Source: Acidobacteriota bacterium (GTDB lineage: Bacteria > Acidobacteriota > Terriglobia > Bryobacterales > Bryobacteraceae). From it: a DNA stretch of 39,324 bases. Below, one piece after another: positions 13,045-31,290 of the stretch. Every line of letters starts with the position of its first letter. The stretch's first letter is position 1. The notes under the pieces were generated by a model. That model did no database searches. It had not been told where the DNA came from and saw only the letters and a program-made list of their open reading frames with translations. Made by a program: the position numbers and the translations under genes. The DNA is taken from positions 1 to 39,324 of the forward strand of contig JACQZT010000333.1 in NCBI GenBank assembly GCA_016213755.1. The letters run 5' to 3'.

Positions 13045-13056
13045 CGGATCACCTCC

Positions 13057-14847
13057 TCACCGCGTTCTTTTGCCGGCACCCTGGGTCATGAGGGCTTTGA
13101 GGTCCGGCAGGTGTTGCGCGTAAACCCCGCGCGGGGTCGTGGCGTGCTTCTTGCACAGCGAGGCGGCCATGCCCACCACCTCGCCCATCATGCCCGTGGT
13201 GCGCTGGACGCGCACCGTGCCCAGCGCCACGTGGGTCACGCTAATGTTGCGCCCGGCCATGAACAGGTTCTCGACGTTGCGCGAGTAGAAACACCGGTAG
13301 GGCACCGCGAAGGGCTCCTTCTTGCCGAACTTGGCGATGGTGCGGAACTCCTGGCCCGGGAACTGCTCGCTGTTCTTGGGGTCCGGGTAGTGCAGGTCGA
13401 TGGACCAGGTGGCGGTCACCGCCGCGTCCGGAAACTCCCGCTTCTCCAGGATGTCCTGCTCCTTGAGAATCACGTCCCCCAGCAGCCGGCGCGACTCGCG
13501 CTTGCCGCCCACGTAGGCCACCCAGGCCAGGCGCAGGTTGGCGTACTTCTCTTTGTTCCTGGCGCGGTTCTTTTGGAACGACCAGTTGCCGTACACCGCG
13601 CGCATACCGTGATCGCGGATGGACTCGAACTCGCCGATCTGGTCCTTGTCTAATCCGGTCTCCCAGTTCCAGTCGCCGTGATCGGCGTTCTGCACCGTCT
13701 GGTCGTTGAACGCAAGCGCCCAGGGCGTCTCCGGGAAGGCCACGGGCTGGCCGGCGTCTTCCGAGTACCACATCACGGAAGTGCCCATCACCAGCTTGTC
13801 GGCGGTCTCCGGCGCGGTCGGTTCGCCGAACTCGCTGCGCGCCTCGCGCCCGTAATGGTAATCCGCGCCCGCCAGGTAGCCAATGGTCCCGTCGCCGGTG
13901 CAGTCGGCAAACAGCGGCGCCGTGTAGCGCAGTTCCTCTCCGCTGAAAACGTCGCGCGCCACCACGGCCGCTATCCGGTGGCCGCTCTTTTCGACGCCGA
14001 AGGCCCGGGTGTTGAGGAACAGGCGGATGTTCTTTTCCGCCTTCACCACGCCCAGCTTTTTCTCGTCATCGTAGCGGGCGGCGGGCTGCGCGTTGCCTTG
14101 ATGGCCGGAATCCAATTCGGCGACCACCGCTCCGAGGGCCGGATACGGCGGCAGGTGGATGTTGCCGCCCAGGTGCACGCGCACGTCGGAGCTGTTGTTT
14201 CCGCCCAGCACCGGACGGTCCTGAATGAGCGCCACCTTCAGCCCGTGCCGCGCCGCCGAGATGGCGGCCGCCGTGCCCGCCATTCCTCCGCCCACCACCA
14301 CCAAGTCGAACTCGCCGGCCGACCGCGGCCGATGGGAAGGCCGCAAGGCCGCCAGTCCCGGCCCGACGTCCGGCGGGCGGAAGTTGAGATCCCGCGTCAG
14401 CAGGATGGCGTCACAGCGGCCTTCGAAGCCGGTCTGATCGTGCAGGGCCAGCGCGACCTTGCCGCTCTCCAGCTTGACCGTGCCGCCATCCTGCCAGTGC
14501 CACTTCGCGCCTTCCGTGCCGAAGACCGTCTTGAGCGGCTGGCCGTTGACCAGCAACTGGAACTTGCCCGGCGCGCCAGGCGCCTTCCACGGCGCCACCC
14601 AGTCGCGGGTCCGGACCCACACGCGATAGGCGCCGGTCTGGGGCGCCTGCACGGTGGTCCTGGCATCCGCCACAGGCGTACCCATGCCGTGCGCCAGCAG
14701 GTAGGCGGAGCCCATCTGTTCCATGAACTGCTGATCCACCGCCCAGCCGCCGAGGAACTCGAAGCTCTCGGCCTCCACAAAAACGGCGGGCGGGGCCGCG
14801 GCCAGCGAGAAGGCGGCCATTAGGAACGGTGTAACAACTCGGATCAT
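13057..14847 (-). CDS. FAD-dependent oxidoreductase with N-terminal carbohydrate-binding-like domain, secreted
   Basis: Signal peptide MIRVVTPFLMAAFSLAAA from ATG at 14847; dinucleotide-binding motif FDLVVVGGGMAGTAAAISAARHGLKVALIQDRPVLGGNNSSDVRVHLGG; LFADCTGDGTIGYLAGADYHYGRE. Confidence 0.88.
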   Translation of the reverse strand: MIRVVTPFLMAAFSLAAAPPAVFVEAESFEFLGGWAVDQQFMEQMGSAYLLAHGMGTPVADARTTVQAPQTGAYRVWVRTRDWVAPWKAPGAPGKFQLLVNGQPLKTVFGTEGAKWHWQDGGTVKLESGKVALALHDQTGFEGRCDAILLTRDLNFRPPDVGPGLAALRPSHRPRSAGEFDLVVVGGGMAGTAAAISAARHGLKVALIQDRPVLGGNNSSDVRVHLGGNIHLPPYPALGAVVAELDSGHQGNAQPAARYDDEKKLGVVKAEKNIRLFLNTRAFGVEKSGHRIAAVVARDVFSGEELRYTAPLFADCTGDGTIGYLAGADYHYGREARSEFGEPTAPETADKLVMGTSVMWYSEDAGQPVAFPETPWALAFNDQTVQNADHGDWNWETGLDKDQIGEFESIRDHGMRAVYGNWSFQKNRARNKEKYANLRLAWVAYVGGKRESRRLLGDVILKEQDILEKREFPDAAVTATWSIDLHYPDPKNSEQFPGQEFRTIAKFGKKEPFAVPYRCFYSRNVENLFMAGRNISVTHVALGTVRVQRTTGMMGEVVGMAASLCKKHATTPRGVYAQHLPDLKALMTQGAGKRTR

Positions 14848-17800
14848 GCAGAGAATTCTAGCGCGAAGGGTGGCAGAATGGTTTGTGCGTCGCATCCCAG
14901 TTTTACTCCTCATTCTGGCCGCGGCCCAAGGCCGGCCGGCCTGGCACCCCACAGTCGATTCCTATTCCCGGTTGAAAGAGCTGTTTGCCAATCCGCCCAT
15001 GGAATACAGCACCTCGCCGTTCCTGGTATGGAACGGCGAAGTAATGGAAAGCGAGATCGACCAGCACCTGACGGCGTTCCGCGATCAGGGCGTGCGATCG
15101 GTTTTCATCCACCCCCGGCCGGGAATGATCACCTCGTACCTGTCCGATCGCTGGTTCCAACTGGTCCGCCACACCGTCGACAAGGGCAAGTCGCTGGGCA
15201 TGGAGGTGTGGCTCTACGACGAAAACTCCTATCCCAGCGGCTTCGCCGGCGGCCACGTGCCGGCCGAGATGCCCGAGTCCTGGAACGAAGGGCAGGGGCT
15301 GTCGCTGCGCCGCGGGCGAAACCTTCAGCCCGACCCGGCCAAGAAGTACCCGGTGATTCTGCGCCCGAATGGCGAGGCGGGCGATACTTACCTTTTTGAA
15401 CTCGCCTTCTACGACAAGCGCGCCTGGCACGGCGGCTTTTCCTACGTCGACCTGATCCGCCCCGGCGTCACCGAGAAGTTCATCGAACTGACCATGCGCG
15501 GCTATGAGAAGACGCTGGCCGGCGACCTCGGCAAGCGCGTTCCGGGCATCTTCACCGACGAGCCCAACATCATTCCGCCGCCGGGCAAGCTCACCATGCG
15601 CTGGACGCCCGACCTGTTCGCCCAGTTTCAGAAACGCTGGGGCTACGACCTCAAGCCTCAGCTTCCCGCGCTGTTCGAAGAGACCGGCGACTGGCGCAAG
15701 GTCCGCCACAACTACTACTCGACGCTGCTGGATTTGTTCATCGAGCGCTGGTCCAAGCCCTGGTTCGACTACACCGAGAAGCGCGGCATCCAGTGGACCG
15801 GCCACTACTGGGAGCACGGCTGGCCCAATCCGCAGCACGGCCCCGACAACATGGCCATGTACGCCTGGCACCACGTGCCCGGCATCGACATGCTCTTCAA
15901 CCAGTTTGACGAGGGCGTGAACGCGCAGTTCGGCAACGTGCGCTCGGTGAAGGAACTCGCGAGCGTGGCCAGCCAGATGGGCCGCCGCCGCACCATTAGC
16001 GAGACCTACGGCGGCGCCGGATGGGAGCTGCGCTTCGAGGACATGAAGCGCCTGGGCGACTGGGAATACGTGCTGGGCGTCAACTTCATGAACCAGCACC
16101 TGGCCTTCGGCACCCTGGCCGGGGCGCGCAAGCACGACTACCCGCAATCGTTCACCTACCACACACCCTGGTGGAACGACTACCACGCGCTGGCCGGCTA
16201 CTTCGCCCGCCTCTCGCTGGCCCTCTCCTCGGGCGAACAGGTGAACGGCATCCTGGTGCTGGAGCCGACCACCACCGGATGGCTGTACTCCTCGCCCGCC
16301 GGCGCCCACCCGCGCCTGATGGAAAACGGCCGCGCGTTCCAGGCCTTCCTAAACCGCCTGGAGGCTGCGCAGGTGGAATACGACCTGGGCTGCGAGAACA
16401 TCCTGCGCGACCGCGCCAAAGTCGCCGGCGCGGCGCTCACAGTCGGGCAGCGATCGTACGGCGTAATCGTGCTGCCTCCGGGCACGGAGAACTTGGATTC
16501 GCCGACCGTGAAGCTTCTGACGGATTTCCAGCGCGGCGGCGGGAAGGTGCTCTCGTTTGTGGACCCGCCGCGCTACGTGGATGGCGCCGAGAGCGGCGAA
16601 GTTGCGAAATGGGAGAAAGTCAGCGATCTTAAGCTCCTCGCCTCCCCCGATTTCGAGATCGTTCGCACCGCGCCCCAGGGCAAGCTGTTCCACCAGCGCC
16701 GCCGGATCGACGGCGGCCAGATCGTGTTTCTGGTCAACTCCAGCTTGGAGGAGAACGCGGCCGGCTCGCTCAAACTGGGCGGGCGCTCCGCCACCCGGCT
16801 GGATCCGCTGACCGGGAGCCTGGCCCCCTACCCGGCACGGCTCGACGGCGCCCGCCTGGCTCTGGACTTCGACCTGCCTCCCGCCGGGAGCCTGCTGCTC
16901 TACGTCGCCCGCACCGGCCAACCCGCCGCGGCGCCGGTGGCGCCCGCGGCCGAAAAGCCGGTGGCGGCCTCCGGTCCGTTGTCCGTCCGGAGGCTGGCCC
17001 CCAACACGCTCACGCTCGACTACTGCGATCTCAAACTGGGCGCCGAGGTCGAACGCGGTCTCTACTATTACGTGGCACAGGAGAAGATCTTCCGGCATCA
17101 CGGTCTGGGAACCAACCCCTGGAACACCGCCGTTCAGTACAAGACCTCGATCCTCGACCGCAACAAGTTCGCGCCGGATTCGGGTTTCGAGGCGGCCTTC
17201 TCCTTCGAGGTCGCCGGTCTCGCGGACAAATCCTCGCTGCGCGCCGTGGTCGAGCGGCCGGAGCTTTGGACCGTGGCCATCAACGGCCACGCTGTGGCGC
17301 CGCGCAAAGGCGAATGGTGGCTCGACCGCGCTTTCGGCGTCTTCGACATCTCCGCGCACGTCCTCGAGGGCCGCAACACGCTGGCCGTGACCGCCCGGCC
17401 CATGTCGATTCACGCCGAACTGGAGCCGGTTTACATTCTGGGCGACTTCGGCCTGGCCGCGCAGCCGGCCGGGTGGCGCATCACGCCGCCCGCGGCGCTG
17501 GCCGCCGGCGCCTGGAAGGAGCAGGGACTGCCGCTTTACTCGCAGGCGGTCTCCCTACCGGTGTTCCTACACCCTGCGCCGCGGCGCGGGGCGCGTGAAG
17601 GTGCGCCTGGGCGCCTGGCACGGCACGGTGGCCGAAGTGCGCGTCAACGGCAAGCCGGCCGGCATCATCGGCTGGCAGCCCTACGAACTGGACATCACCC
17701 GCCTGGTCGCCGACGGGTCCAACACGATCAAAGTGATCGTGGTCGGGTCGCTCAAGAACCTGCTCGGACCGCACCACGGCAAAATCAACAAGGGCCTGGT

Positions 17801-17912
17801 GTCGCCCGGCAGTTTCCGGCCCGCTCCCGCCCAGCCCCCGCCGGGCGCGGCCTACGACCTGGAAGCGTACGGCCTGATGGGAGAGTTCCGAGTGGTTGAA
17901 ACCGCGCGCTGA
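14846..17912 (+). pseudogene. GH106-like glycoside hydrolase (alpha-L-rhamnosidase-like), reading frame disrupted by an apparent 1-nt insertion near 17553-17555
   Basis: FANPPMEYSTSPFLVWNGEVMESEIDQHLTAFRDQGVRSVFIHPRPGM...GMEVWLYDENSYPSGFAGG. Coherent protein runs in one frame to ~17550 and continues in another (SPYRCSYTLRRGAGRVKVRLGAWHGTVAEVRVNGKPAGIIGWQPYELDITRLV...) to 17912. GTG codons at 14870 or 14885 are alternative starts. Confidence 0.75.
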
Positions 17913-17993
17913 TTCCGATTTAGCTTTCCGAATCCTGGTTTTTGGCGTATTCTGGACTCGGACTTCCCTCCGGGCGCTAAGAAGGAGGGCACA

Positions 17994-18470
17994 ATGCCGA
18001 TTCTCGCCAAACTGCGGGAGATGCTCGACGCTTCGGACGTCTCCTATACGCATCATGTTCACCCGCTGGCCTATACGGCCCGGGAACTCGCTTCGGTCGA
18101 ACACATACCAACCCACGAGGTCGCCAAGGTGATTGTGTTTCTTGCCGATCCGGGCTACGGTATGGCCGTGCTGTGCGGCGACTCGCTGGTTGACGTGCTC
18201 GAACTTCGCTCCACGCTGGGCTACCAGCGTCTGCGGCTGGCCACCGAAGCCGAACTGGCGGAGTTGTTCCCCGACTGTGAACTGGGAGCCATGCCGCCGT
18301 TCGGGAACCTCTTCGGGTTGTCCGTATACGTCGACTCCCGGGTGGCGGGCGAAGAAACCATCGCTTTCAACGCGGGCACGCACCGCGACGTGGTCCTGAT
18401 GCGCTTCCAGGACTACCGGAACCTGGTCCAGCCGGAGGTGATCCACTTCGCGCGCCAGGCCGCCGCTTGA
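17994..18470 (+). CDS. YbaK/ProX-like aminoacyl-tRNA deacylase domain protein
   Basis: MPILAKLREMLDASDVSYTHHVHPLAYTARELASVEHIPTHEVAKVIVF...MPPFGNLFGLSVYVDSRV. RBS AAGGAGGG before ATG. Confidence 0.85.
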   Translation: MPILAKLREMLDASDVSYTHHVHPLAYTARELASVEHIPTHEVAKVIVFLADPGYGMAVLCGDSLVDVLELRSTLGYQRLRLATEAELAELFPDCELGAMPPFGNLFGLSVYVDSRVAGEETIAFNAGTHRDVVLMRFQDYRNLVQPEVIHFARQAAA

Positions 18471-18540
18471 CCTAATCTGGCGCGACCCCGTACATGCCGG
18501 GCGGCCGCCGCCCCGATGCCGGTCAAGTACGGCGAGCGGA

Positions 18541-19173
18541 TCAGCGCGGGATGTCCGGCAGCTTGGGCGGCGGCGGCGGAGCGTAGCCGGCGGGAACCTG
18601 AAACAGCGCAGGGTCCGGCTCTCGCGCCTCGATGTACCGGCAGCGGGTGGTCTGCTGACCGAAGTCACCCGTCATCTTCCGCAGTACCGGCAGGTGCAGC
18701 CGGGTGCTGGTCCAGACTTCCGCGGTCGTAACCGGCGAGGGCGGCAGTTGCGGCGCCTGGGGCATCGACGGAGGCTGAGGGACGGCGGGCGGCTGCAACG
18801 TATACAGCTTGCCTTCCACTTCGTGGCCGTCGATGATCGACCGGCCCAGGTTCTGCACCTTGCTGATGGCCGCGGGTGGCGCAACGGCGCCCGCCAGCCC
18901 GGAAGGGTCGTACTGGCCCGCCGGCAGCTTCTGCATCGGAACCACGCTGACCGCTTTGGTCACGTGGTCCAGCATCGTCGTCTGCTGCGTAGCCAAGTCG
19001 AGTATCACCGTGGAATTGCCCGCATCGCAGCGAATCTTCCCTTCGGCCGAGCGGTACATTCTCGAGATGGATTCCTGGGGCGCGGCGCCGGGCTGGGCCG
19101 GCTGGAACGTGGTCACGCACTCGCCGATCACCGGCGGCAAAGACACTTGCGAAGGCTGTGTCACGGCACCCAC
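18541..19173 (-). CDS. Hypothetical protein with proline-rich segment
   Basis: 210-aa ORF, GTG start 3 nt after the upstream epimerase gene; LQPPAVPQPPSMPQAPQLPPSP linker and PPPPPKLP tail. Confidence 0.6.
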   Translation of the reverse strand: MGAVTQPSQVSLPPVIGECVTTFQPAQPGAAPQESISRMYRSAEGKIRCDAGNSTVILDLATQQTTMLDHVTKAVSVVPMQKLPAGQYDPSGLAGAVAPPAAISKVQNLGRSIIDGHEVEGKLYTLQPPAVPQPPSMPQAPQLPPSPVTTAEVWTSTRLHLPVLRKMTGDFGQQTTRCRYIEAREPDPALFQVPAGYAPPPPPKLPDIPR

Positions 19174-19176
19174 AGA

Positions 19177-20184
19177 TTACCACGTCCGCGCCGCGCGCAG
19201 GCCTCCCTCGTAAGCTTCGATGACCCTGTCCCAGGCCGCGCCGGCCTCCGCGTCCACCTGCCGGCGCGCGGGGTCGGCGTCGAACCAGGCCAGGGTCCGG
19301 CGGATGCCCTGTCCGAAGGGTACGGTGGCGCGAAAGCCGGGCACGAAGCACTTGATCTTACTGTTATCGAAGACCACGCTGACCGCCTTGTCTCCGATCA
19401 GCCCGCCCAGTTTGTCGGGCAGGCAGGCGCCGATAAAATCCGAGGGGATGTGGACCAGTCGCGGCTCCACGCCCGCGGCTGCGGCGGTGATCCGGTAGAA
19501 CTGGTCCCAGCACAGGACCTCGTCGGAGGTGATGTGAAAAGCGTGTCCAATCGCTTGTTCGTGGCCCAGCAAACCCACCAGGCCTTTCGCGAAATCGGTA
19601 TTGTGCGTGATGACCCACAGCGACGAGCCGTCGCCCGGCACAATGACCTTCTTGCCGCGGCGCATGCGGTCCACCGCGGTGTAGGACTTCGCCCAACTGT
19701 TGACCGCCAGCGCAATCTGCGTCTCGCCGTACGTGTGCGAGGGGCGCACGATGGTGACCGGGAAACCCTCCTCGCGATAGGCCCGCATCAGCCGCTCCTC
19801 GCAGGCGATCTTGTTCCGCGAATACTCCCAGTACGGGTTGGTCAGCGGCGTCGCCTCGGTGATGAGATAGTGCGTCGCCGGCTTCTGATAGGCGCTGGCG
19901 GAACTGATGAAGATGTACTGCCGCGTGCGTCCGCCAAACAGCGCCAGGTCGCGCTCCACGTGTGCGGGAGTGAACGCGATCCAGTCCACGACCACGTCGA
20001 ACGTCTCCTTCGTGAGCGCCTGCGGAGCGTCGTCGATGTCCGCGGTCAGCGTCTTCACCCCGGCGGGAAGCTCCGCCGCCCGGCGTCCGCGGGTCAATAG
20101 CGTCAGGTCGATCCCGCGCTCGGCCGCCAGCGCCGTGCAGGCCGTGCTGATGATTCCGGTTCCGCCGATGAAAAGAACCCGCAT
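19177..20184 (-). CDS. NAD-dependent epimerase/dehydratase (SDR family)
   Basis: MRVLFIGGTGIISTACTALAAERGIDLTLLTRG; YIFISSASAYQKP; YSRNKIACEERL (YxxxK); VRPSHTYGE. Confidence 0.9.
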   Translation of the reverse strand: MRVLFIGGTGIISTACTALAAERGIDLTLLTRGRRAAELPAGVKTLTADIDDAPQALTKETFDVVVDWIAFTPAHVERDLALFGGRTRQYIFISSASAYQKPATHYLITEATPLTNPYWEYSRNKIACEERLMRAYREEGFPVTIVRPSHTYGETQIALAVNSWAKSYTAVDRMRRGKKVIVPGDGSSLWVITHNTDFAKGLVGLLGHEQAIGHAFHITSDEVLCWDQFYRITAAAAGVEPRLVHIPSDFIGACLPDKLGGLIGDKAVSVVFDNSKIKCFVPGFRATVPFGQGIRRTLAWFDADPARRQVDAEAGAAWDRVIEAYEGGLRAARTW

Positions 20185-20224
20185 GGAAACCTTTGTAGCA
20201 GACTATCGCCGCGTCCCCTTGCCG

Positions 20225-20255
20225 ATACGTATTGACCCGGATGTACAATACGTAT
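20225..20255. promoter_or_regulatory. Perfect 10-bp inverted repeat (ATACGTATTG-N11-CAATACGTAT), candidate TA operator
   Basis: Left arm 20225-20234, right arm 20246-20255, 1 nt before the antitoxin GTG start; -10-like TACAAT at 20244-20249 overlaps the right arm. Confidence 0.7.
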
Positions 20256-20256
20256 A

Positions 20257-20484
20257 GTGCCGAAGCTGACTTTGAGTGTAGACGAATCCGTGGTGTCGCG
20301 AGCCAAGAGCTACGCCCGCCGCAGGGGCACTTCGGTCTCGAAGCTGGTCGAAAACTACCTGAAGACCCTGGCCGCCCCCGCCGAGAGCGGGGAAGATCCC
20401 CCCATCCTGAGGTCGCTGCGAGGAATTCTCAAGAAGGGCGATCGCGAAGCGTACCGGAAGCACCTGGCGGATAAATACTTGTGA
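20257..20484 (+). CDS. DUF6364-type ribbon-helix-helix-like antitoxin
   Basis: MPKLTLSVDESVVSRAKSYARRRGTSVSKLVENYLKTL; small gene overlapping a downstream PIN gene. Confidence 0.82.
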   Translation: MPKLTLSVDESVVSRAKSYARRRGTSVSKLVENYLKTLAAPAESGEDPPILRSLRGILKKGDREAYRKHLADKYL

Positions 20485-20897
20485 AGCGATTCCTGGTCGA
20501 CATCAACGTCATCCTCGACGTTCTGCTGGACCGGCAACCTCACGCCGAGGCCAGCGCTCGGGTGTGGGCCGCGATTGAAACCGGCAAGGTCGCAGGCGCC
20601 CTGGCTGCGCACGCAATCACGACCATCCACTACCTCGTGCGCAGGGAGAGAGGCGCCTCGGTAGCCCGACGAGCGGTGACCGCCCTGCCGAAAGTGTTTC
20701 GAATTGTCGCCGTCGGCGAGGAAGTGATTCGTGCGGCGCTCCTGTTACCCGGCCTGGACTTCGAGGATAACGTAACCGCGGCCGCGGCCCACATGGCGGG
20801 CTGCGACGCCATCGTGACTCGAGATCCGAAAGGCTATCCGAATTCGCCCGTTCCGGCGATAACGCCCGAAGCGGCGGCCGAGTGGCTCTCAGCCTGA
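20481..20897 (+). CDS. PIN-domain toxin (VapC-like ribonuclease)
   Basis: MKRFLVDINVILDVLLDR, LDFEDNVTAAAAHMAGCDAIVTRDPKGY. GTGA overlap with the antitoxin stop. Confidence 0.87.
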   Translation: MKRFLVDINVILDVLLDRQPHAEASARVWAAIETGKVAGALAAHAITTIHYLVRRERGASVARRAVTALPKVFRIVAVGEEVIRAALLLPGLDFEDNVTAAAAHMAGCDAIVTRDPKGYPNSPVPAITPEAAAEWLSA

Positions 20898-20949
20898 ACT
20901 GCTACGATATGGAGCGGTTGCGGAAGTCGCTCTCGCACCGGGAGGCATT

Positions 20950-22191
20950 ATGCATCGCCGAGATTTCCTGCGCGCCGCCCCGCTGGCGGGCGGTGCGGGA
21001 CTGCTGCCGCCGGCGTTCGCGGCGGAAACGAGCAAACTCAAAATCACCAGCGTGCGGCTGGTGCGAACCAAGCCCCGGCGTCCCGTGCCATCTTACCGCC
21101 CCGCTCCGGGTTCGTGGTCCACGGGCGGGGTGGAAGTGGCCAATCCGATGTCGATCTACCCGGAGTACAAGGCGCAGCGCTCGCTGTTCCAGCCCGACCC
21201 CGGGAAGCTGGGCGGATTCACGGTGGAGATCGCCACCGACAAGGGGGTGAAGGGTTACGGCAGCGGCGGCACGGGGGGCGGCCAGGTGGTGGAGCAGCAC
21301 TTCACCAAGCTTCTGCTGGGCGAAGACCCCTTCAACGTCGAGCGCATCTGGGACATCCTGTGGCGTTCGAGCATGTCCTATGGCCGGGCGGGCATCGCCA
21401 TCAACGCCATTAGCGGAGTGGACCTGGCGCTATGGGACCTCATCGGCAACGCGCTCCAGATGCCCGTATACAAGCTGTTGGGCGGCGAAACCAAGGCCCG
21501 CATTCCGGCTTACTGCACGGGCAACGACATCGAGCAGCACATCGCCTTCGGCTACAAGCGGCTCAAGCTGGCCATCCCGCACGGCCCGGCCGACGGCCGC
21601 GAAGGGCAGCTTAAGAACGTCGAACTGGTGAAGCGCACGCGCGAGGCGCTGGGTCCCGCCGGCGACATCATGCTGGATTGCTGGATGGCCTGGACCGAGC
21701 GCTACACGCTGGAGATGGCCGAAATGGTGGCGCCCTACCGGGTTTATTGGATGGAAGAGTGCTTGCAGCCGCACGACTACGAAGGGTTCGGCCGGCTCAA
21801 CGCGCAAATCCAATCCACCCGCATTGTCACCGGCGAGCACGAGTATACGCGCTACGGGTTCCGAAAGCTGCTGGAGCACCGCTCGGCTTCCATCTGGCAG
21901 CCAGACATCCACTGGTGCGGAGGTCTCACCGAACTGCGCCGCATCGCCGCGCTGGCCGCCGCTTACGACATCCCGGTGATTCCCCACGGGGGCGGCGGGC
22001 AGGACTCGGTGCATTTCATCCTGGCCACCGTGAATTCGCCCTGGGCCGAACTGTTTATGCCCGCGCCCGGAGGCCCGCCGGAGGTCTACCGGCGCTACGA
22101 GGAAGACAACCAGATCACGCGCGGGCCCGAAGGCATCTACATGCGCCCGTCCGAACGGCCCGGCTTCGGCTGGGACTTCGACGCCGCCTGA
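20950..22191 (+). CDS. Mandelate racemase/muconate lactonizing enzyme (enolase superfamily) with Tat signal
   Basis: MHRRDFLRAAPLAGGAGLLPPAFAAE signal; AINAISGVDLALWDLIGNALQMPVYKLLGG; MLDCWMAWT; WMEECLQPHDYEGF; TGEHEYTRYGF; PDIHWCGGLTELRRIAALA; VIPHGGG. Confidence 0.9.
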   Translation: MHRRDFLRAAPLAGGAGLLPPAFAAETSKLKITSVRLVRTKPRRPVPSYRPAPGSWSTGGVEVANPMSIYPEYKAQRSLFQPDPGKLGGFTVEIATDKGVKGYGSGGTGGGQVVEQHFTKLLLGEDPFNVERIWDILWRSSMSYGRAGIAINAISGVDLALWDLIGNALQMPVYKLLGGETKARIPAYCTGNDIEQHIAFGYKRLKLAIPHGPADGREGQLKNVELVKRTREALGPAGDIMLDCWMAWTERYTLEMAEMVAPYRVYWMEECLQPHDYEGFGRLNAQIQSTRIVTGEHEYTRYGFRKLLEHRSASIWQPDIHWCGGLTELRRIAALAAAYDIPVIPHGGGGQDSVHFILATVNSPWAELFMPAPGGPPEVYRRYEEDNQITRGPEGIYMRPSERPGFGWDFDAA

Positions 22192-22206: not shown

Positions 22207-25200
22207 CTACGAAACCCCGAAACTCAGGTCTTGCGCCAGCGTGGGCAGGAAATCGGGCGTGGTTTGCAGGTAGAAGTGCCCGCCGTCGAAGATGCGGGCC
22301 GCGAACGAGCCGCTGGTCTGGCAGTTCCAGGCCTCGACGTGCTCTTCGCGCACGTTCGGGTCGGCGGCGCCGCCGTAGGCGCGCAGGGCGAAGCCGAAGG
22401 GCAGCTCGGGGGTGTAGACGTAGTTGCGGTAGAGCGCCGTGTCGGCCCGCAGCACGGGCGCCAGCACGCGCATCAACCCGTCGTTTTCGAGCACCTCGGC
22501 GGGCACGCCTTCCAGGCGGCGCAGTTGCGCGCGGAACTCCTCGTCGGCGGGGGGCGGCAGAGGCGTCCAGCCTTCCCGAAACTGCGGGGCGCGCGCGCCG
22601 GAAACGATCAGGCCGCGCGGCAGCGCCTTGCCGTTGCGCCGCAAGTGGCGGGCCAGTTCGAAAGCCACCGCGGCGCCCATGCTGTGTCCGAAGAAAACGA
22701 AAGGCCGGTCCAGCAGCGGGCGGATCGCCCCGCCCAGGGCCGCGACGAGCGCCTCCATGCGCTCGAAGGGCGCTTCCGCCGAGCGGCTCTCGCGCCCCGG
22801 CAAGCGCACAGGGCAAACCAGCACGCCCGCCGGCAGTGCGGATTGCCAGCGTGCGAACGCCGCCGCGCCCCCGCCCGCGTGCGGGAAACAGAACAGGCGC
22901 ACGTCGCCGGCGGCCTCCGCGCCGGGGAACCAGGAAGCCGTGCTGGCGCGCTGGCGCAGTAGAATCGACAGCAGGCGGCGCCGCTCCGGAGACAGATTCT
23001 CGACTGGGGCGGCGCGTTTGGGCCGGCGGCGCGTCTCTTCGAGCAGCGCCTCGAAAGGCTCCACGCTCAGGCTTTCGGCGTACGCCAGCGCGGCGGCGCG
23101 CGAGGCGCGAGAGATTTCCTCCCAATGCGCGCGGTCGCCGAGCAGCCGCTCGAGCGCCTCGCGCCAGGGCGAAAGATCCTGCTCGGGAGCCTGGGCCAGC
23201 GGCACCATCTGCTCGTCCAGGCTGGGCTGGTAACTCGCGATGGGACGCACCGGGATCAGGTACGGCACGCCCATCTTCGCTTCCGGAATGCCGCCCACGT
23301 CGGAGGCGATGACCGGCACGCCGGCGAGCATCGCTTCCACCACGATGCGCGAGCGCGCCTCGGCCCACAGCGACGGCGCCAGCAGCACCCGCGTTTGCTC
23401 CAGCAGGCGGGCGATATCGTCCACCGGATCCAGCAGCGTGACGTTGGGCCGGGCGGCCAGCGCGGCGCGGTCTCGCTCGTTCGTTCCCCAGGTGGGGACG
23501 GCCGCGAAACGCACTTGCGGCAGCGCATCCGCCAGCGCGAGGAAAATCGAGATGCCCTTCACAATGCAAGGGTTCACCATGGTCGCGAACGGGCTGTCGA
23601 AACGGCCCAGCGCGGGCCGGGAGCCGGCCTCGAGCAGCGAAATGGGAACGTGCACGGCGTCCATCGCGCCATGGCGGCGCACATAGGAAGCCACGTACTC
23701 GCTCACGCCAACCACGCAGTCGGCGCGGCGCAGTTGCGCGGTCTTGGATTCGCTCGGGAAGGCTGAATCCGGGCCGAAGGGCACGGCCAGGGTGGCACGC
23801 ACCAGGTACACCACGCGGGCTTGGGAGCGCAGCGCGGTCTCGAACAGCATCTGCGCCGGGTCGTCCGTCGAAGTGAGGATGACGCCGGGCTGAAACGTCT
23901 CCGCCTCCTGCGCGAAGGAAGCGCGCATGGGCGCATCGGCCACCACCGTCACCGCCACGCCGCCCAGGGTGAAGCGCACCAGGCCCGCCTGTGCCGCGGC
24001 CTCGACGCCCCGCCGCGCCAGTTCTTCGAGATACAGACGCTGGGCTTCGGCGCCGAAGCGGGGGATGCGGGCCACCACGCGGCATTCGTGACCGCGCGCC
24101 GCCAGCGCCTCCATCAGCAGGCGGTTGGATTTGTCCCCGCCGCCGTGAGCCGGAAAGTACATCGAATTCTGCGCCAGCAGGATGCGCATCCCGGGGCGAG
24201 CGCGAAGTTGGCCCGCCAGCAGGTGTTCCAGCGCGCCGGCGCCGATGCCGCGGACGAACTCGGCGGCCCGCTCGCGAGCCAGCGCCGATTCGCGCTCGTA
24301 CAGCGCGCGGTCGGAGAGCAGCGTCGAGAGTGCCCCGGCCCAGGGCTCGGCATCCAGCGCGGGCAGCACCGGGCGCGGCATGCCGCGTTCGTCGAAAGCC
24401 GCCTGGTAGCGCGGGATGGGCGGCGCGGGCACGACGAAACCCGTTCCCAGCTTGGCCTCGCGCAGCCCGCCCGAGTCGCTCGCAATCACCGGGATGCCGC
24501 GCAGCATGGCCTCGACGACAATCAGCCCGAAGCCCTCGTACCACAGCGAGGGCATCAGCAGCACGCGTGTCCGCTCGAGCAGCGCGCCGATGTCGCGCGC
24601 GTTGGGCAGCGCTTCGACGTTGGGCAGCCGCTCCAGCTTCCGGCGATCTTCCGCCGTGGTTCCCCATCCGGGAACCCATCCGAAGCCGAGGTCCGGGAAG
24701 CGTTCCGCCAGCGCGGCGAACAGGTCGATGCCTTTCACCGCGCAGGGATTGATCATGGTGACCAAACCGCTCTCGAAGCGCGCGCGCACGGGCCAGGGGC
24801 CCGGACCGTAGATGGGCGGGTGGATGACCGCCGCCTCGCGCCCCAGGTGCTCGCGAACGTAGCCCGCCATGTGCCGGCCAATCACGACGATCACGGCCGA
24901 CCCGGCCAGCAGGCGCGCGGCCTGCGGATCGGGATTCCAGCTCTCGGGGCCGAAGGGGAAGAACTGCGGCGTGTGCGCCAGGAAGACCACCCGGCCGGGC
25001 GCCGCGGCGTGCGCCTCCCGCAAAAGGAGATGGCCCAAATCCTCCGAGGAAACCAGCACCCAGTCGGGCTGGAACTCGCGCACCTGTTCGCTCAACAGCC
25101 GCACCCGGCGCGACGGCTCTTCCACGCCCATCACCGCAATGCTTCCACGCAGCGAATGCTCGACGCCGTCGCGGACGTCCACGCTTCCGACACCCTCCTG

Positions 25201-25362
25201 CCGCATTTGTTCGCGCTTGCCGGGCGAATCGGGGATGGTGGCGCAAACCACGCGGCACTGGTGCCCGGCCGCGGCCAGCTCGTCCAGCCAGGCCAGGTTG
25301 GCGCGCGTGGCGCCGCCCCGAGGGGGAGCGTAACTGGCGCTGGCCGTTAGCAGGATCTTCAT
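22207..25362 (-). CDS. Tandem GT4 glycosyltransferases fused to a type II (GrsT-like) thioesterase, ~1051 aa
   Basis: ATG at 25362 (MKILLTASASYAPPRGGATRANLAWL). GT4 domain 1 has EGFGLIVVEAM. GT4 domain 2 starts at 24189 (MRILLAQNSMYFPAHGGGDKSNRLL) and has EARSRIVVEAM. Thioesterase from ~22905 (DVRLFCFPHAGGGAAAFARWQ...FVFFGHSMGAAVAFELARHL...FDGGHFYL). Confidence 0.88.
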   Translation of the reverse strand: MKILLTASASYAPPRGGATRANLAWLDELAAAGHQCRVVCATIPDSPGKREQMRQEGVGSVDVRDGVEHSLRGSIAVMGVEEPSRRVRLLSEQVREFQPDWVLVSSEDLGHLLLREAHAAAPGRVVFLAHTPQFFPFGPESWNPDPQAARLLAGSAVIVVIGRHMAGYVREHLGREAAVIHPPIYGPGPWPVRARFESGLVTMINPCAVKGIDLFAALAERFPDLGFGWVPGWGTTAEDRRKLERLPNVEALPNARDIGALLERTRVLLMPSLWYEGFGLIVVEAMLRGIPVIASDSGGLREAKLGTGFVVPAPPIPRYQAAFDERGMPRPVLPALDAEPWAGALSTLLSDRALYERESALARERAAEFVRGIGAGALEHLLAGQLRARPGMRILLAQNSMYFPAHGGGDKSNRLLMEALAARGHECRVVARIPRFGAEAQRLYLEELARRGVEAAAQAGLVRFTLGGVAVTVVADAPMRASFAQEAETFQPGVILTSTDDPAQMLFETALRSQARVVYLVRATLAVPFGPDSAFPSESKTAQLRRADCVVGVSEYVASYVRRHGAMDAVHVPISLLEAGSRPALGRFDSPFATMVNPCIVKGISIFLALADALPQVRFAAVPTWGTNERDRAALAARPNVTLLDPVDDIARLLEQTRVLLAPSLWAEARSRIVVEAMLAGVPVIASDVGGIPEAKMGVPYLIPVRPIASYQPSLDEQMVPLAQAPEQDLSPWREALERLLGDRAHWEEISRASRAAALAYAESLSVEPFEALLEETRRRPKRAAPVENLSPERRRLLSILLRQRASTASWFPGAEAAGDVRLFCFPHAGGGAAAFARWQSALPAGVLVCPVRLPGRESRSAEAPFERMEALVAALGGAIRPLLDRPFVFFGHSMGAAVAFELARHLRRNGKALPRGLIVSGARAPQFREGWTPLPPPADEEFRAQLRRLEGVPAEVLENDGLMRVLAPVLRADTALYRNYVYTPELPFGFALRAYGGAADPNVREEHVEAWNCQTSGSFAARIFDGGHFYLQTTPDFLPTLAQDLSFGVS

Positions 25363-27452
25363 GACTCGACCGGAGGCGTCTCTTCTCGGGCCAGCAACGC
25401 CCGCACTTCTTCGTCCGAGAGGCCCTCGACCTCTTTGAGCAGATCGTCGTAGCCCGCCACAACCGCCTGCTCGATCTCCTTCAGTTCGACGGCGCGAGCC
25501 AGCGCCGCGGGAGTGAACTCGCCCGTGTACACGACCTCCAGGGAAAGATCGGCGCCGAAGCGCCGGCGAACCCGCGCCAGCAACTCGACCGCCATCAGCG
25601 AGTGGCCGCCCAGGTCGAAGAAGCTGTCGTTGGCGTTCACCGTTGCGACGCCCAGCAATTCCGCCCACAACGCGCGGATTTCGCGCTCGATTTCGGCGCC
25701 CGGCGCCTGCCCCGCCTTTATCGCTGATGCAGGCGACGATTTGCGCTTCCGGATGCGCTCCAGGATCGCCTCCGCCGTGCGCAGTTCCCGCGCGATGCGT
25801 TCGTAATCGGCGCGCACGGGCGCGGCTGCGGCGGCCTTCGGCCCGGGCTCCGCCGGCCGGCCGTTCACCGGCCGGTATTCGAGGGCCGCGGCGATTCCGG
25901 CCGGAAAGGCAAAAAGCTGTCCCCCTTCGCGCGGCTGCTGATACCGGCGGCCGCCGGCGTTTTCCAGGAACAGCAGCGCGGGGCGATTGCGCGCCGATGT
26001 AGCGAACGGCGCTTCCACCCGCTTCAATCCCCGGTCCAGCGCCATGCGGCCCAGATGCCGCAGAACGTAGTGTTCCACTCCCCGGCCCAGCACCCGGCAA
26101 CTGAGCAGGAACGTGTCGATCTTCAGCGCTTCGGCATCGCAGGCGAACAGCACCGCGCCGGTGAGGCCGTAGCTGCCAAAGCGGTCTTCGACTTCCACCG
26201 TCAGGCACTCGCCGCTGGCGCGAAGGAACTCGCGGATCTCGCTCTCACCGCGCCGCCGCGTGGTGAAGTTCATCTGGTTGGTGCGCTGGGTGAGCTGCGC
26301 GATGCGCGCGAACTGGCCGGGGCGCGCCGTTTCGATGCGCACTTCCAGCCGCAGCGAGGCGAGAAAACCCTCCAGGCTGGCCGACTGACGTTCCAGGCGG
26401 TGGCGCTCCATCTCCAGCGCGTACATCGCCGCGCGGCGCCGGTCCTCTTCGGTGATCCGCAGCCGGTCGAAAGCCCACACATGTTCGAGGAAGGCGGGGA
26501 TCTCCCGCTCGTCGGCGGGCAGCGCCAGGGCCAGGATCTCCGGGCACGCCGCCTGCGCTTCGCGGCACTCCTTGGGGTTGTCGTCCACGAAGACGAACGA
26601 GTCCAAACCCAACTGCATCTCTTCGGCCAGCCCGCGCAGGTTGTGGCCCTTGGAATCCCAGTTGATGCGGTGGGATACGAAGTTCTGAAGCCGCAGCGGC
26701 ATCTCCGGATGCACGCGGAAGGTTTCCAGCACTTCTTCCACGTTGTTCTTGCTGGCCAGGCACAGCAGCAGGCCGGCCTCGTGCTGCCGGAGCATGAACT
26801 CTTGCAGCGCCTGCCGCGGGGCATCCAGCGTCACGCCCTCGGGGCCGTCCTCGCCGCACACCCCGCGCCACAGCGTGTCGTCGCAATCCAGCGCGCAGAC
26901 TTTGAACGGCGTCATGCGCAGCGCGTTGATCTTGCGCGCCAGCAAAGTCCCCAGCGCGGCGAACAGCAGTGGCGTATAAGGGACGCGGCCCAGTTCGTCG
27001 CTGTGCGGGTCGTGCACTTCAGCCACCGGGTATAGCTTCAACAACTCCTCGGAGGTGACGACGTGGACCGTGCTCACGGCGGCGAGTTCCGCGCGCAGGT
27101 TCGCGGCGGCGTCCCGCTCAGGCTCGGGACAGAAGACCACCAGCAGAGGCACGGACCAGCGGGCGGCGGCCGAGCGCACGGCCTCGGCGAACTGCCGCGT
27201 CACGTCCCCGGCGGCGCCGCCGGCCGGCAGCCAGTCCCTCAGGCGGACCAGCAAGACGTTGACGCCGTCCGCGTTTGCCGCCAGCAGGCTGGTTGGGTCC
27301 AGCAGTTGCTGGAAGACCTGGTTGAAGGGCGCGAAGCGGACCGTGTCCCGCCAGCCCAGCTCCTCGATCCAGAAGCGCAGCGATTCCTCCACCGGTTCGG
27401 CGGTGAAGGTGGCGCTGATGGCGATGGCGGGCGCGTGTTCGGCGGCGGTCAT
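25359..27452 (-). CDS. FkbH-like HAD-IIIC protein with C-terminal acyl/peptidyl carrier domain
   Basis: KVCALDCDDTLWRGVCGEDG (HAD motif I), ASKNNVEEVLETFRVHPEMPL, FVFVDDNPKECREAQ, FGSYGLTGAVLF; carrier motif DSFFDLGGHSLMAVELLARV with Ser codon at 25599-25601; tail VEGLSDEEVRALLARE. Confidence 0.92.
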   Translation of the reverse strand: MTAAEHAPAIAISATFTAEPVEESLRFWIEELGWRDTVRFAPFNQVFQQLLDPTSLLAANADGVNVLLVRLRDWLPAGGAAGDVTRQFAEAVRSAAARWSVPLLVVFCPEPERDAAANLRAELAAVSTVHVVTSEELLKLYPVAEVHDPHSDELGRVPYTPLLFAALGTLLARKINALRMTPFKVCALDCDDTLWRGVCGEDGPEGVTLDAPRQALQEFMLRQHEAGLLLCLASKNNVEEVLETFRVHPEMPLRLQNFVSHRINWDSKGHNLRGLAEEMQLGLDSFVFVDDNPKECREAQAACPEILALALPADEREIPAFLEHVWAFDRLRITEEDRRRAAMYALEMERHRLERQSASLEGFLASLRLEVRIETARPGQFARIAQLTQRTNQMNFTTRRRGESEIREFLRASGECLTVEVEDRFGSYGLTGAVLFACDAEALKIDTFLLSCRVLGRGVEHYVLRHLGRMALDRGLKRVEAPFATSARNRPALLFLENAGGRRYQQPREGGQLFAFPAGIAAALEYRPVNGRPAEPGPKAAAAAPVRADYERIARELRTAEAILERIRKRKSSPASAIKAGQAPGAEIEREIRALWAELLGVATVNANDSFFDLGGHSLMAVELLARVRRRFGADLSLEVVYTGEFTPAALARAVELKEIEQAVVAGYDDLLKEVEGLSDEEVRALLAREETPPVES

Positions 27453-27543: not shown

Positions 27544-28806
27544 ATGTCGGACCTCCTGGCGCTCTTACGGTCGAACCCCAATTACCGCCACACGTGGCTG
27601 GCGCAGGTGGTGAGCGAGGTCGGAGACTACTTCAACAATATCGCTGTCTTCAGCCTGGTGCTGCAGACCGGCGGCTCGGGGCTGGTGGTGAGCGGCGTGA
27701 TGCTGGCCCGCGCCATTCCGGCGGTGGCCGCCGGGCCGGTGGCCGGCGTTGTGCTCGACCGCTTCGACCGCCGGCGCATCATGATCGCCTCCGACCTGGT
27801 GCGCGCGGTGGTGGCGGCCGCGTTTCTGCTCGCCATCGAGCGCCCCAGCGCCTGGCTGCTCTACCTGCTGAGCGCGCTGCTGATGTTTGCCTCGCCGTTC
27901 TTTTCGAGCGGCCGGGCGGCGATCCTGCCGGCTATCGCCAGCCCGCGCGAGCTGCACACCGCCAACTCGCTCACCCAGACCACGCAGTGGGCCACCCTCA
28001 CCGCGGGGACGCTGGCGGCCGGTTACGCCACTGCTTGGTTCGGCTACCGGGGCGCGTTCGTCCTCAATGCTCTGTCGTTCCTGTTTTCGGCCTGGGCCAT
28101 CTCCCGGCTGCGCGGCGGTTTCCGGCCCCGGCGCGAAGCCGCGCCCCACCACGGCGCGCGGCGCGCGTGGACCGAGTACGCCGACGGACTCCGCTACATG
28201 CGCTCCGTGCCCCTGATTTTCGGCATCGCCATGATCTCGGTGGGCTGGGCCACCGGCGGCGGAGCGGCGCAGATCCTGTTCGCGCTGTTTGGCGAGCAGG
28301 TGTTCCACCGCGGTCCGCGGGGCATTGGGACCATCTGGGGCATGGCCGGCGTCGGGCTGCTGGCGGGCGGCGCGCTGGGACACCTGGCGGGGCGCCGCGC
28401 GAGCTTCGCCGGCTACAAGCGGACCGTGGCGGTGTCCTACATCTCGCACGGCCTCACCTACGTGCTGTTCAGCCAGATGGAAAACTACGCCGCGGCGCTG
28501 GTCATGATCCTGCTCTCGCGGGTGGGTATGGCCGTCTCCAGTGTGCTGAACCAGTACCAACTGCTGCGCCACACGCCGGACCAGTTCCGGGGCCGGGTCT
28601 TCTCGACGCTCGAATCGCTGCGCTGGGCGGTCATGATTGGCTCGATGGCTGCGGCCGGCATCGCCTCGCAGTACTACAGCCCCCGCGCCATCGGCCTGGT
28701 AGCCGGCATCCTCAGCTCCCTGACCGCCGTCTGGTGGACCTGGGCCGACTGGACCGGCCGGCTGCCCGAGCCCAATTCGGTGACAGGCTACTCTTTCCCC
28801 AATTAA
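27544..28806 (+). CDS. MFS transporter (EntS/MFS_3-like exporter)
   Basis: 12-TM-like hydrophobic pattern; VVSEVGDYFNNIAVFSLVLQTGGSGLVVSGVMLARAIPAVAAGPVAGVVLDRFDRRRIMIASDLVRA. Confidence 0.88.
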   Translation: MSDLLALLRSNPNYRHTWLAQVVSEVGDYFNNIAVFSLVLQTGGSGLVVSGVMLARAIPAVAAGPVAGVVLDRFDRRRIMIASDLVRAVVAAAFLLAIERPSAWLLYLLSALLMFASPFFSSGRAAILPAIASPRELHTANSLTQTTQWATLTAGTLAAGYATAWFGYRGAFVLNALSFLFSAWAISRLRGGFRPRREAAPHHGARRAWTEYADGLRYMRSVPLIFGIAMISVGWATGGGAAQILFALFGEQVFHRGPRGIGTIWGMAGVGLLAGGALGHLAGRRASFAGYKRTVAVSYISHGLTYVLFSQMENYAAALVMILLSRVGMAVSSVLNQYQLLRHTPDQFRGRVFSTLESLRWAVMIGSMAAAGIASQYYSPRAIGLVAGILSSLTAVWWTWADWTGRLPEPNSVTGYSFPN

Positions 28807-28951: not shown

Positions 28952-29860
28952 ATGCATATACCCGATGGATTCCTTTCGACTCCGGTGTGGGCGGCCCTGG
29001 ACGCCGCCGCCGTGGTTTCGGTCGGATCCCTGGCGCGCCGGACGCAGCGGGAAATCGAGGATTGCCGCATTCCCGCCCTGGGAGTGATGGGCGCGTTCGT
29101 CTTCGCGGCGCAGATGATCAACTTCCCGGTGGGCCTGGGAACCAGCGGCCACCTGTTGGGCAGCGCGCTGCTGGTGGTGACGCTGGGGCCGGCCGCGGCC
29201 TCGATCGTAATGGCGGCCATCCTCGTGATTCAGGCGCTAATCTTCCAGGACGGCGGAATTCTGGCCCTGGGCGCCAACGTCTTCAACATGGCCGTGGCGG
29301 GGGTTCTGGCCGCCTATCTGCCGTACCGGATCTGGAGCGCGGGGCGCATGCGGAATTTCGCCATCTTCGCCGGCGGCGCTTTGGCGGTATTGGTTGGCGC
29401 GGCACTGGCGGTGGGCGAGTTACTGGCCTCGGGCATTCGGATGGGTCCGGGGATTCTAGGTATCTCGTGCGGTCTGTTTGCCGTGAACGCTGTGCTTGAA
29501 GGGTCCATCACCGTGGCCGTGGTGCGATCGCTGGAGGCGATGCGGCCGGACTGGGTGCGGGCCCCGGACTCCTCCGGCCGGCTGGTGCTCGGGTCCCTGG
29601 CGGCCGCCGCGGTGTTGCTGGCCGTAGTGGGCGTGCTGTTTGCCTCCGCCGATCCGGACGGCCTCCAGCGACTGGCCGAGCGGGCTGGAATCGCGGAGCG
29701 GGCGAAAAACCTGTTCACCACGCCCATGACGGACTATCAACTGGGTGGCGTGCGCTCGGAGTGGGCGCGCAAGGCGGTGGCCGGCCTGGCCGGAGTGGCC
29801 GCGATCACGCTGCTCACGCTGGGTCTGAGCAAGGCCCTGGCACGGCGCGGGAGAGCCTGA
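28952..29860 (+). CDS. cbiM: CbiM-type ECF metal transporter substrate-binding membrane protein (CbiN-like C-terminal region)
   Basis: MHIPDGFLSTPVWAALDA: the family's N-terminal Met-His metal-site motif favours ATG at 28952 over track start 28922. C-terminal extension ends MTDYQLGGVRSEWARK...TM. Confidence 0.88.
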   Translation: MHIPDGFLSTPVWAALDAAAVVSVGSLARRTQREIEDCRIPALGVMGAFVFAAQMINFPVGLGTSGHLLGSALLVVTLGPAAASIVMAAILVIQALIFQDGGILALGANVFNMAVAGVLAAYLPYRIWSAGRMRNFAIFAGGALAVLVGAALAVGELLASGIRMGPGILGISCGLFAVNAVLEGSITVAVVRSLEAMRPDWVRAPDSSGRLVLGSLAAAAVLLAVVGVLFASADPDGLQRLAERAGIAERAKNLFTTPMTDYQLGGVRSEWARKAVAGLAGVAAITLLTLGLSKALARRGRA

Positions 29861-30583
29861 GTGCACCAGGTCGTCATTGACCGCTGGAGCCGGCAGGCCA
29901 GCCCGCTGCACAGGATCGAGCCTCGCACTAAGCTCGTGGCGCTGGCGGTTTTTCTGGTGGCCCTGGCCACCGCTCCGGGCGCGCCGCTGGGCCGCGGTGC
30001 GGCCTATCTGCTCATGATCGCGGCCGTCATCGCGCTGGCGAGGCTGCCGGTTTTCGGTCTTCTGGCTCGCGCCGCGGTGGTGCTGCCGTTTTCGGCAACC
30101 TTCGCGCTGGTCAGCCTGCTGGCGGGCGACAGCCAGCGCGCGGCGGCGCTGGCGATCAAGAGTTACCTGTCCGCCTCCGCGGTGCTGCTGATCGTCGCCA
30201 CGACGCCACTGGAGCGCCTGGTCCGGGCCATGGAGGCGCTGGGAGCGCCGCGCCCGGTCGCCCTGATCGCCCAGTTCCTGTATCGCTACCTTTTCGTCGT
30301 CTCCGAGCAGGCGCAGCACATGCGGGTGGCCTCGCTGTGCCGGGCCCCGGAGGCGTCGGGCGCGGCGCGCCGCCTGCGGTTCCGCGCCGCCGCGGGAGCG
30401 GTCGGGGTCCTGTTCGCGCGTTCGTACGCGCGCGCGGAAGGGATTCACCGGGCGCTCATGGCGCGCGGCTTCGAGGGCCGCTTTCCGTCCGTCTCGCTTC
30501 CCCGCCCGCAAGCCTCCGATCTCGCCTTCCTGGCTCTGGCGGCAACTTTATCCGTGGCCATCCGATGGGGAGTGCCAGGCTGA
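29861..30583 (+). CDS. cbiQ: CbiQ-type ECF transporter transmembrane (T) component
   Basis: GTG immediately after the cbiM stop; HRIEPRTKLVALAVFLVALAT; RSYARAEGIHRALMARGFEGRFP. Confidence 0.88.
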   Translation: MHQVVIDRWSRQASPLHRIEPRTKLVALAVFLVALATAPGAPLGRGAAYLLMIAAVIALARLPVFGLLARAAVVLPFSATFALVSLLAGDSQRAAALAIKSYLSASAVLLIVATTPLERLVRAMEALGAPRPVALIAQFLYRYLFVVSEQAQHMRVASLCRAPEASGAARRLRFRAAAGAVGVLFARSYARAEGIHRALMARGFEGRFPSVSLPRPQASDLAFLALAATLSVAIRWGVPG

Positions 30584-31290
30584 TGCGGGACCAACTGCTG
30601 GTGGAAGCGCGCGGAGTGCGATACCGGTACGAAGACGGAACGCCGGCCCTCGAAGGCGTGGATTTCGAACTGCGCCGCAACGAAACCGTCGCGCTGTTCG
30701 GCCCGAACGGATCGGGCAAGACCACCTTCGTTCTGCTGCTGAATGGCTTGCTCACCGGAGAAGGCGAGATCCGCGTGTGCGGCCTGCGCGTGGAGAGAAA
30801 AAACCTGCCGGTCATCCGGCGCAAGGTCGGCGTGGTTTTCCAGGATCCGGAAGAGCAACTCTTCATGCCCACGGTTCTGGAAGACGTGGCGTTTGGCCTG
30901 CTCAGTCAGGGTATCGAGCGCGAGCGGGCACTGAAGGCCGCCACCGGGGCGCTGGAGAAGGTCGGCATGAAGCACAACTCTAACCGGGCGCCCTATCACC
31001 TGAGCGCGGGCGAGAAAAGGCGCGCCACCCTGGCCGGAGTCCTGGTGATGAAACCGGAGATCCTGATTCTGGACGAGCCCACCACGTTCCTGGATCCGCC
31101 GGGCCAGCGCGACCTGATTCACTTACTCGAAGAACTGCCTCAGTCGAAGATCGTGGTCACACACGACACCTGCTTCGCCCGGGCGCTGGCCCAGCGAGCG
31201 GTTTTCTTTGAAAAAGGCCGGGTAACGGGCGCGGGCGCCGTCGAAGACATCGCACGCCGCTTCGACTGGGACAGCCGTCCGGCCCGCTGA
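30583..31290 (+). CDS. cbiO: CbiO-type ECF transporter ATPase
   Basis: ATG at 30583 overlapping the cbiQ stop; Walker A FGPNGSGKTT, Q-loop VFQDPEEQLFMPTV, signature LSAGEKRRATLAG, Walker B ILILDEPT. Confidence 0.92.
   Translation: MRDQLLVEARGVRYRYEDGTPALEGVDFELRRNETVALFGPNGSGKTTFVLLLNGLLTGEGEIRVCGLRVERKNLPVIRRKVGVVFQDPEEQLFMPTVLEDVAFGLLSQGIERERALKAATGALEKVGMKHNSNRAPYHLSAGEKRRATLAGVLVMKPEILILDEPTTFLDPPGQRDLIHLLEELPQSKIVVTHDTCFARALAQRAVFFEKGRVTGAGAVEDIARRFDWDSRPAR

Follow-up and report, generated by a model that had tools for sequence, protein, structure and literature searches.

A conserved Bryobacteraceae operon as a candidate carrier-bound assembly line for glycosylated glycerate

What might be made by an enzyme that loads glycerate onto a carrier protein when glycosyltransferases, rather than the modules of a larger assembly line, are encoded next to it? 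This question is raised by a two-gene operon in a 39,324-nucleotide stretch of DNA (hereafter the window), which is a complete contig (JACQZT010000333.1) of a metagenome-assembled genome (MAG; 5.78 Mb, 94.1% complete) from the acidobacteriotal family Bryobacteraceae. The first gene encodes an FkbH domain joined to a peptidyl carrier protein domain (FkbH-PCP), while the second encodes two GT4 glycosyltransferase (GT) domains, GT1 and GT2, fused to a thioesterase (TE). With a probability of roughly 0.55, we propose that these two proteins form a minimal assembly line, derived from nonribosomal peptide synthetases (NRPSs), in which glycerate would be glycosylated while held on a carrier protein. 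An earlier examination of the DNA letters made without database searches (the sequence-only reading) had instead suggested that a carrier-bound glyceryl group decorates a glycan or glycoside. As an interpretation, this is partly supported by the results described here.

The two proteins and their conservation

FkbH-PCP matches the FkbH model TIGR01686 with 272 bits (cut-off 147) and the phosphopantetheine-binding model PF00550 with 60 bits, in agreement with the FkbH-like HAD-IIIC enzyme and the PCP with an intact DLGGHSL site recognized in the sequence-only reading. Its HAD DxD motif, its C-terminal RTNQ-type region and residues L614-GGHS-L619 of the PCP are invariant in 24 homologs. These features support a prediction that the FkbH domain is of the glyceryl type and loads the adjoining carrier.

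In the second protein, Pfam GT4 models produce two sets of matches and the thioesterase matches PF00975 (E=5e-47), so that the two GT4 domains and type II thioesterase of the sequence-only reading are upheld. Both glycosyltransferases have the GT-B fold and EX7E motif of retaining GT4 enzymes, and the thioesterase, whose nearest solved relatives are RedJ and RifR, is of type II in sequence, fold and Ser-Asp-His residues. The EX7E motif is intact in each GT, as are Ser and His of the thioesterase, the aspartates of the HAD part and the carrier site LGGHSL; across 18-24 homologs, nearly all of these are invariant. The predicted structure of GT2-TE (mean predicted local distance difference test score of 89.5) has two confident domains and a loose linker; its thioesterase part matches RedJ, BorB and RifR, while GT2 resembles, among others, MshA and BshA in fold. 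The latter are retaining enzymes with small hydroxylated acceptors, and this modelled likeness may be counted toward glycosylation on the carrier.

Both genes lie where the sequence-only reading had placed them, on the minus strand (which it did not specify), and they overlap by 4 nt as it described (ATGA at 25359-25362). Following a homolog search across 257 genomes of the window's order, strong GT-TE homologs were identified in many genera of the family, and a separate scan of named GTDB species genomes produced 80 GT-TE loci. The usual gene order is FkbH-PCP, GT1 and GT2-TE; most relatives keep GT1 and GT2-TE as separate genes, and in the window and some others the two are fused. FkbH-PCP is directly upstream in 68 of the 80 loci, and nine of the other 12 are truncated by contig ends. 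Because homologs with 44-77% identity retain this order in dozens of genomes, the association is not one of chance, and the coupling of an FkbH-carrier to GTs and a thioesterase noted from the sequence is a conserved one. Nearly all of the 80 loci are labelled Bryobacterales, Solibacteraceae or other Acidobacteriota; one comes from a MAG labelled Arcobacter, whose FkbH groups in the FkbH tree with one from Bryobacteraceae (100/100). The operon is conserved in Bryobacteraceae. A homologous major facilitator superfamily (MFS) gene, of the TIGR00900 and EntS-like kind, stands beside it in the window and at approximately one-quarter of the loci, so the product is probably exported. Apart from this gene, no widely shared neighbours were found around the operon in its relatives.

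Missing partners and NRPS-linked relatives

No ketosynthase (KS), adenylation (A) or condensation (C) domain occurs in the window, as had been observed previously, and a polyketide synthase (PKS) or NRPS acting in trans, the situation that the sequence-only reading had named as fatal to its proposal, was not found in the genome. The genome has no condensation domain, a single ketosynthase that is FabF-like and located beside an acyl carrier protein (ACP), and three carriers; the combination of condensation and adenylation domains that defines an NRPS is therefore lacking. The 118 neighbourhood loci scanned, which total 2.06 Mb and are partly redundant, gave no A, C or KS domain other than in fusions of a fatty acyl-AMP ligase (FAAL) with a C domain. 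The evidence for the absence of a partner assembly line from the genome is strong, if not absolute, because the genome is incomplete, and the description of the carrier as an orphan is supported. Two phosphopantetheinyl transferases (PPTases) are encoded, AcpS and a second, HetI-like enzyme of the Sfp superfamily, for which the PCP of FkbH-PCP is an obvious client. The sole other non-AcpP carrier of the genome is a free ACP encoded on a different contig (C103, locus L034) with an SGNH-hydrolase-like protein and a FabH-like protein.

Beyond the family, the GTs of Acidobacteriota found to be nearest to GT1 and GT2 are linked to NRPSs. Locus L164 (10170-19061) encodes a single 2963-aa protein with the order GT-C-A-PCP-C-A-PCP-TE, L176-L181 encode NRPS proteins that open with GT-C, and L182 and L183 carry a free GT between NRPS genes. 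In L178, L180 and L181, FkbH-PCP is directly upstream of the GT, which repeats the pairing of the window. In L176, L177, L179, L182 and L183, the GT is preceded by a C-A-PCP module, and in all five its A domain has a Ser code (DVWHMSLVDK, DVWHISLIDK or DVWHISLVDK) or a Thr code (DFWNIGMVHK). A canonical Ser or Thr code is present in none of the 14 other A domains of these loci, one of which (DMYNMGMIH) is Thr-like (Fisher's exact test, 9e-5; 5e-4 once the near-identical L182 and L183 are merged). Overall, eight of nine NRPS-linked GTs are located behind a glyceryl, Ser or Thr carrier, and the GTs of the window and its relatives are located behind FkbH-PCP. No further cases of GTs with NRPSs were found in another Acidobacteriota class, and an FkbH search of two genomes (G307 and G439) gave no match, but the control matched nowhere there either.

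GT2 of Bryobacteraceae nests among the NRPS GTs in the tree (100/98 and 98/94). A linker with the pattern LSPERRxLL follows the GT both in the GT-C proteins of NRPSs and in GT2-TE of the window, and a tail with the pattern LSxEEVxALL is common to window-type FkbH-PCP proteins and six of the eight carriers that precede NRPS-linked GTs, those of L182 and L183 being the two without it. As these GTs follow glyceryl, Ser and Thr carriers, the carrier-bound residue is the predicted sugar acceptor; judging from gene order and sequence, the most likely activity of this GT subfamily is to attach sugar to the hydroxyl of a residue held on the upstream carrier.

The pairing extends to a plasmid of Streptomyces sp. 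NBC_00441 (locus L185, NZ_CP107920.1, 67236-98411; also L187), where FkbH-PCP and a GT4 of this subfamily accompany an enediyne-type PKS in one cluster, together with an ACP, a TE, free condensation domains, an MFS gene and sugar-nucleotide genes. This hints that the pairing of FkbH with these GTs is wider than Acidobacteriota and suggests that the cluster makes a glycosylated, glycerate-derived side group. A GT of the same subfamily from a Niveispirillum plasmid (L186, 15007-16167) was rejected as a carrier-linked case: it is beside an ATP-grasp/GNAT fusion, with neither FkbH nor a carrier.

An NRPS ancestry is also indicated by longer versions of the first protein. In G071, G125 and G139 (loci L050, L053 and L058), the FkbH protein is 1818-1850 aa in length, has the order FAAL-ACP-C-FkbH-PCP and is followed by GT1 and GT2-TE, while a contig of G155 begins within a C domain preceding FkbH. 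A condensation domain is thus found in front of FkbH-PCP in four lineages, with FAAL-ACP-C in all three complete cases; this extension is absent from the window and its genome. Because the four lineages form one clade in the FkbH tree, with moderate support (90/81; 81/91 in a second tree), a single gain or retention of the extension is probable. The tree was set aside as a test of whether FAAL-C is ancestral, as its root is unsure because of long branches. In vioprolide and corramycin starter modules, a C domain of the ester-forming type joins glycerate on the carrier to a fatty acid (PMC8949500, PMC10099666). Given the condensation domain in front of FkbH, with FAAL-ACP in the three complete cases, the glycerate of these four lineages is probably fatty-acylated as well, which would give a glycolipid. 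Two other FkbH-containing NRPS-like proteins of Bryobacteraceae (L060, 9091-17373, 2761 aa; L061, 7286-18799, 3838 aa) are unrelated to the GT-TE operon. The NRPS ancestry, the conserved MFS gene and the separation of GT1 from GT2-TE in most relatives had escaped the sequence-only reading.

Predicted pathway and rival readings

Each chemical step of the following scheme is inferred, as are the identity of the sugar, the order in which GT1 and GT2 act and the export. Ser618 of the PCP would be phosphopantetheinylated, probably via the Sfp-superfamily PPTase of the genome, and FkbH would place a C3 unit from 1,3-bisphosphoglycerate on it as a glyceryl group. The retaining GT4 domains would then glycosylate the glyceryl group at one of its hydroxyls while it is on the carrier, with the second GT either lengthening the first sugar or using the remaining hydroxyl (one or two sugars in all). 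The fused thioesterase would free the glycosyl-glycerate, which the neighbouring MFS protein would probably export. In a broader form of this proposal, to which we give an even chance, the operon represents a class of assembly lines that build glycosides on a carrier template without any ketosynthase, adenylation or condensation domain, and its in-line GT4 subfamily also acts in NRPSs on PCP-bound Ser, Thr and glycerate.

Several observations weigh against the proposed scheme. The glyceryl specificity of FkbH is predicted from homology, and the A-domain codes depend on the PheA fragment and the table of codes with which they were read. The GT-NRPS of L164 has no carrier directly upstream, three GT-TE loci (L090, L095 and L135) are true exceptions with no FkbH next door, and members of the GT subfamily are also found away from carriers (L165 and L186); because of the context of L186, the subfamily is not tied only to carriers. 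The window thioesterase, furthermore, belongs to the type II (editing) class.

A model along the lines of the sequence-only reading, in which the GTs make a glycoside or glycan separately and the thioesterase acts as an acyltransferase that moves the glyceryl group from the PCP to give a glyceroyl ester, would account for the fusion of the thioesterase to a GT, and TE-like folds can pass acyl groups to hydroxyls. We nevertheless consider it unlikely, since the nearest solved relatives of this thioesterase are hydrolytic type II enzymes and since the model leaves unexplained why, in NRPSs, related GTs come directly after carriers loaded with Ser, Thr or glycerate; this last point indicates that the direction of decoration is probably the reverse, with the sugar added to the glycerate. 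Type II thioesterases are known for editing, and it is conceivable that the thioesterase only proofreads the PCP while the glycosylated glyceryl group is passed to an acceptor or enzyme encoded elsewhere, such as a membrane or envelope acceptor or another acyltransferase. In favour of this, relatives share no further release enzyme next to the operon, but neither is an acceptor enzyme conserved next door, the conserved exporter suggests a free small molecule, and the genome offers no condensation domain and no ketosynthase other than the FabF-like one; we therefore regard this possibility as rather improbable. It is very improbable that FkbH-PCP and the GTs belong to separate pathways and are neighbours by chance. 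The GT4 family is broad and this subfamily also occurs without carriers, but the fixed gene order, the 4-nt overlap in the window, the GT-TE fusion and the recurrence of the FkbH/GT pairing in NRPS settings and in the Streptomyces enediyne-type cluster all speak against it. Release of a glycosylated glycerate built on the carrier remains the reading that we prefer.

The features of the operon are listed in Table 1. A scan for promoters and terminators produced no signal above chance. Elsewhere in the window are genes for an 828-aa TPR-CHAT protein (5230-7716; CHAT, 196 bits, a caspase-like peptidase family), a sugar-acid catabolism group (11968-22191) that includes a UxuA-like mannonate dehydratase, an FAD oxidoreductase, a GH106 rhamnosidase, an epimerase and a rhamnonate-dehydratase-like protein of the enolase superfamily, and, downstream of the MFS gene, a cobalt energy-coupling factor transporter, CbiM-CbiQ-CbiO (28985-31290, plus strand). 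The rhamnose and cobalt genes were considered as partners of the operon and rejected, as their place beside it is not conserved, and neither is that of the sugar-acid group as a whole in relatives.

Table 1. Features of the operon and the adjoining exporter gene in the window
Feature	Position	Strand	Remarks
FkbH-PCP, operon gene 1	25359..27452	-	697 aa, ATG start; TIGR01686 and PF00550 matches; upstream of GTs in 68/80 loci
FkbH domain (HAD-IIIC and glyceryl-transfer part), residues 183-502, motif LDCDDTLWRGVCGEDG	25947..26906	-	Profile match; D189, D191, W195 and RTNQ invariant in 24 homologs
PCP domain, residues 591-655, phosphopantetheine site Ser618 in DLGGHSL	25488..25682	-	PF00550
C-terminal tail of FkbH-PCP, VEGLSDEEVRALLARE	25362..25448	-	Possible docking element; kept in homologs
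GT4-GT4-thioesterase fusion, operon gene 2	22207..25362	-	1051 aa
GT1, GT4 domain, residues 1-388	24199..25362	-	EX7E motif EGFGLIVVE intact; own clade at 100/100
GT2, GT4 domain, residues 392-790	22993..24189	-	EX7E motif EARSRIVVE intact; nests with NRPS-embedded GTs
GT2-TE linker, NLSPERRRLLSILLRQRA	22945..22998	-	Resembles GT-C linker of related NRPSs
Thioesterase, RedJ/RifR-type (type II), residues 822-1034	22261..22899	-	Catalytic Ser and His invariant, Asp nearly so
MFS exporter, divergent from operon	27544..28806	+	TIGR00900/EntS-like; adjoins operon at ~1/4 of loci

Comparison with known systems

There are precedents for glycerate loading by FkbH-PCP, for GT4 enzymes and type II thioesterases, and for starters of the FAAL-ACP-C-FkbH-PCP layout. 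In the open literature (subscription papers and preprints being outside the scope), no in-line NRPS GT, GT-TE fusion, load-glycosylate-release line or account of this cluster was found, nor was any description of the GT-first NRPS proteins of other Acidobacteriota (L164, L176-L181). Glycosylation of natural products is usually late, on the finished molecule. If the proposed reading is true, a GT that sits inside an assembly line and acts on a hydroxy residue held by the carrier would represent a novel type of tailoring domain, in-line O-glycosylation would be a built-in assembly-line step, and a simple genomic rule, a GT behind a glycerate, Ser or Thr carrier, would identify it. The operon of Bryobacteraceae, with two proteins and few substrates, would then be the most compact form in which such a domain works, and would be suited to intact-protein mass spectrometry. 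The reading also predicts an unseen family of glycosyl-glycerates and glycolipids from Bryobacteraceae, a large and poorly cultured soil family.

A similar end product, with one or two sugars on glycerate, could be given by glucosylglycerate and mannosylglycerate synthases of the GpgS/MpgS type, which glycosylate free 3-phosphoglycerate or glycerate without a carrier, FkbH or thioesterase; the enzymes encoded in the operon are of the GT4 family and come with a carrier. Type II thioesterases are normally free-standing, whereas that of the window is fused to a GT. In tetronate and methoxymalonyl pathways, FkbH and a carrier give glyceryl-S-carrier (e.g. tetromadurin, PMC7489565); this glyceryl-ACP feeds a PKS, of which none was found in the window's genome. 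In the NRPSs for dysinosin, suomilide, varlaxin and cyanopeptolin, an FkbH-type domain loads glycerate that is then methylated and sulfated (PMC6520454, PMC10143770, PMC2533009). Those starters end in peptides, whereas here there is no peptide module and the proposed tailoring is glycosylation. The domain order of the vioprolide and corramycin starter modules of myxobacteria (FAAL-ACP-C-FkbH-T; PMC10099666, PMC8949500) is matched in the four extended Bryobacteraceae lineages, one of them cut at a contig start, and the loading of glycerate by FkbH onto the T or PCP domain is a further likeness, predicted here from sequence. In contrast to those modules, two GTs and a thioesterase come after FkbH-PCP instead of peptide modules, and the window and most of its relatives lack FAAL-ACP-C. 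Closest of all in their GTs are the GT-C-A-PCP NRPSs of other Acidobacteriota, which share the GT subfamily and the linker with the window and, in three loci, an FkbH-PCP directly upstream; in these proteins C-A-PCP modules follow the GT, whereas in the window the thioesterase comes directly after GT2.

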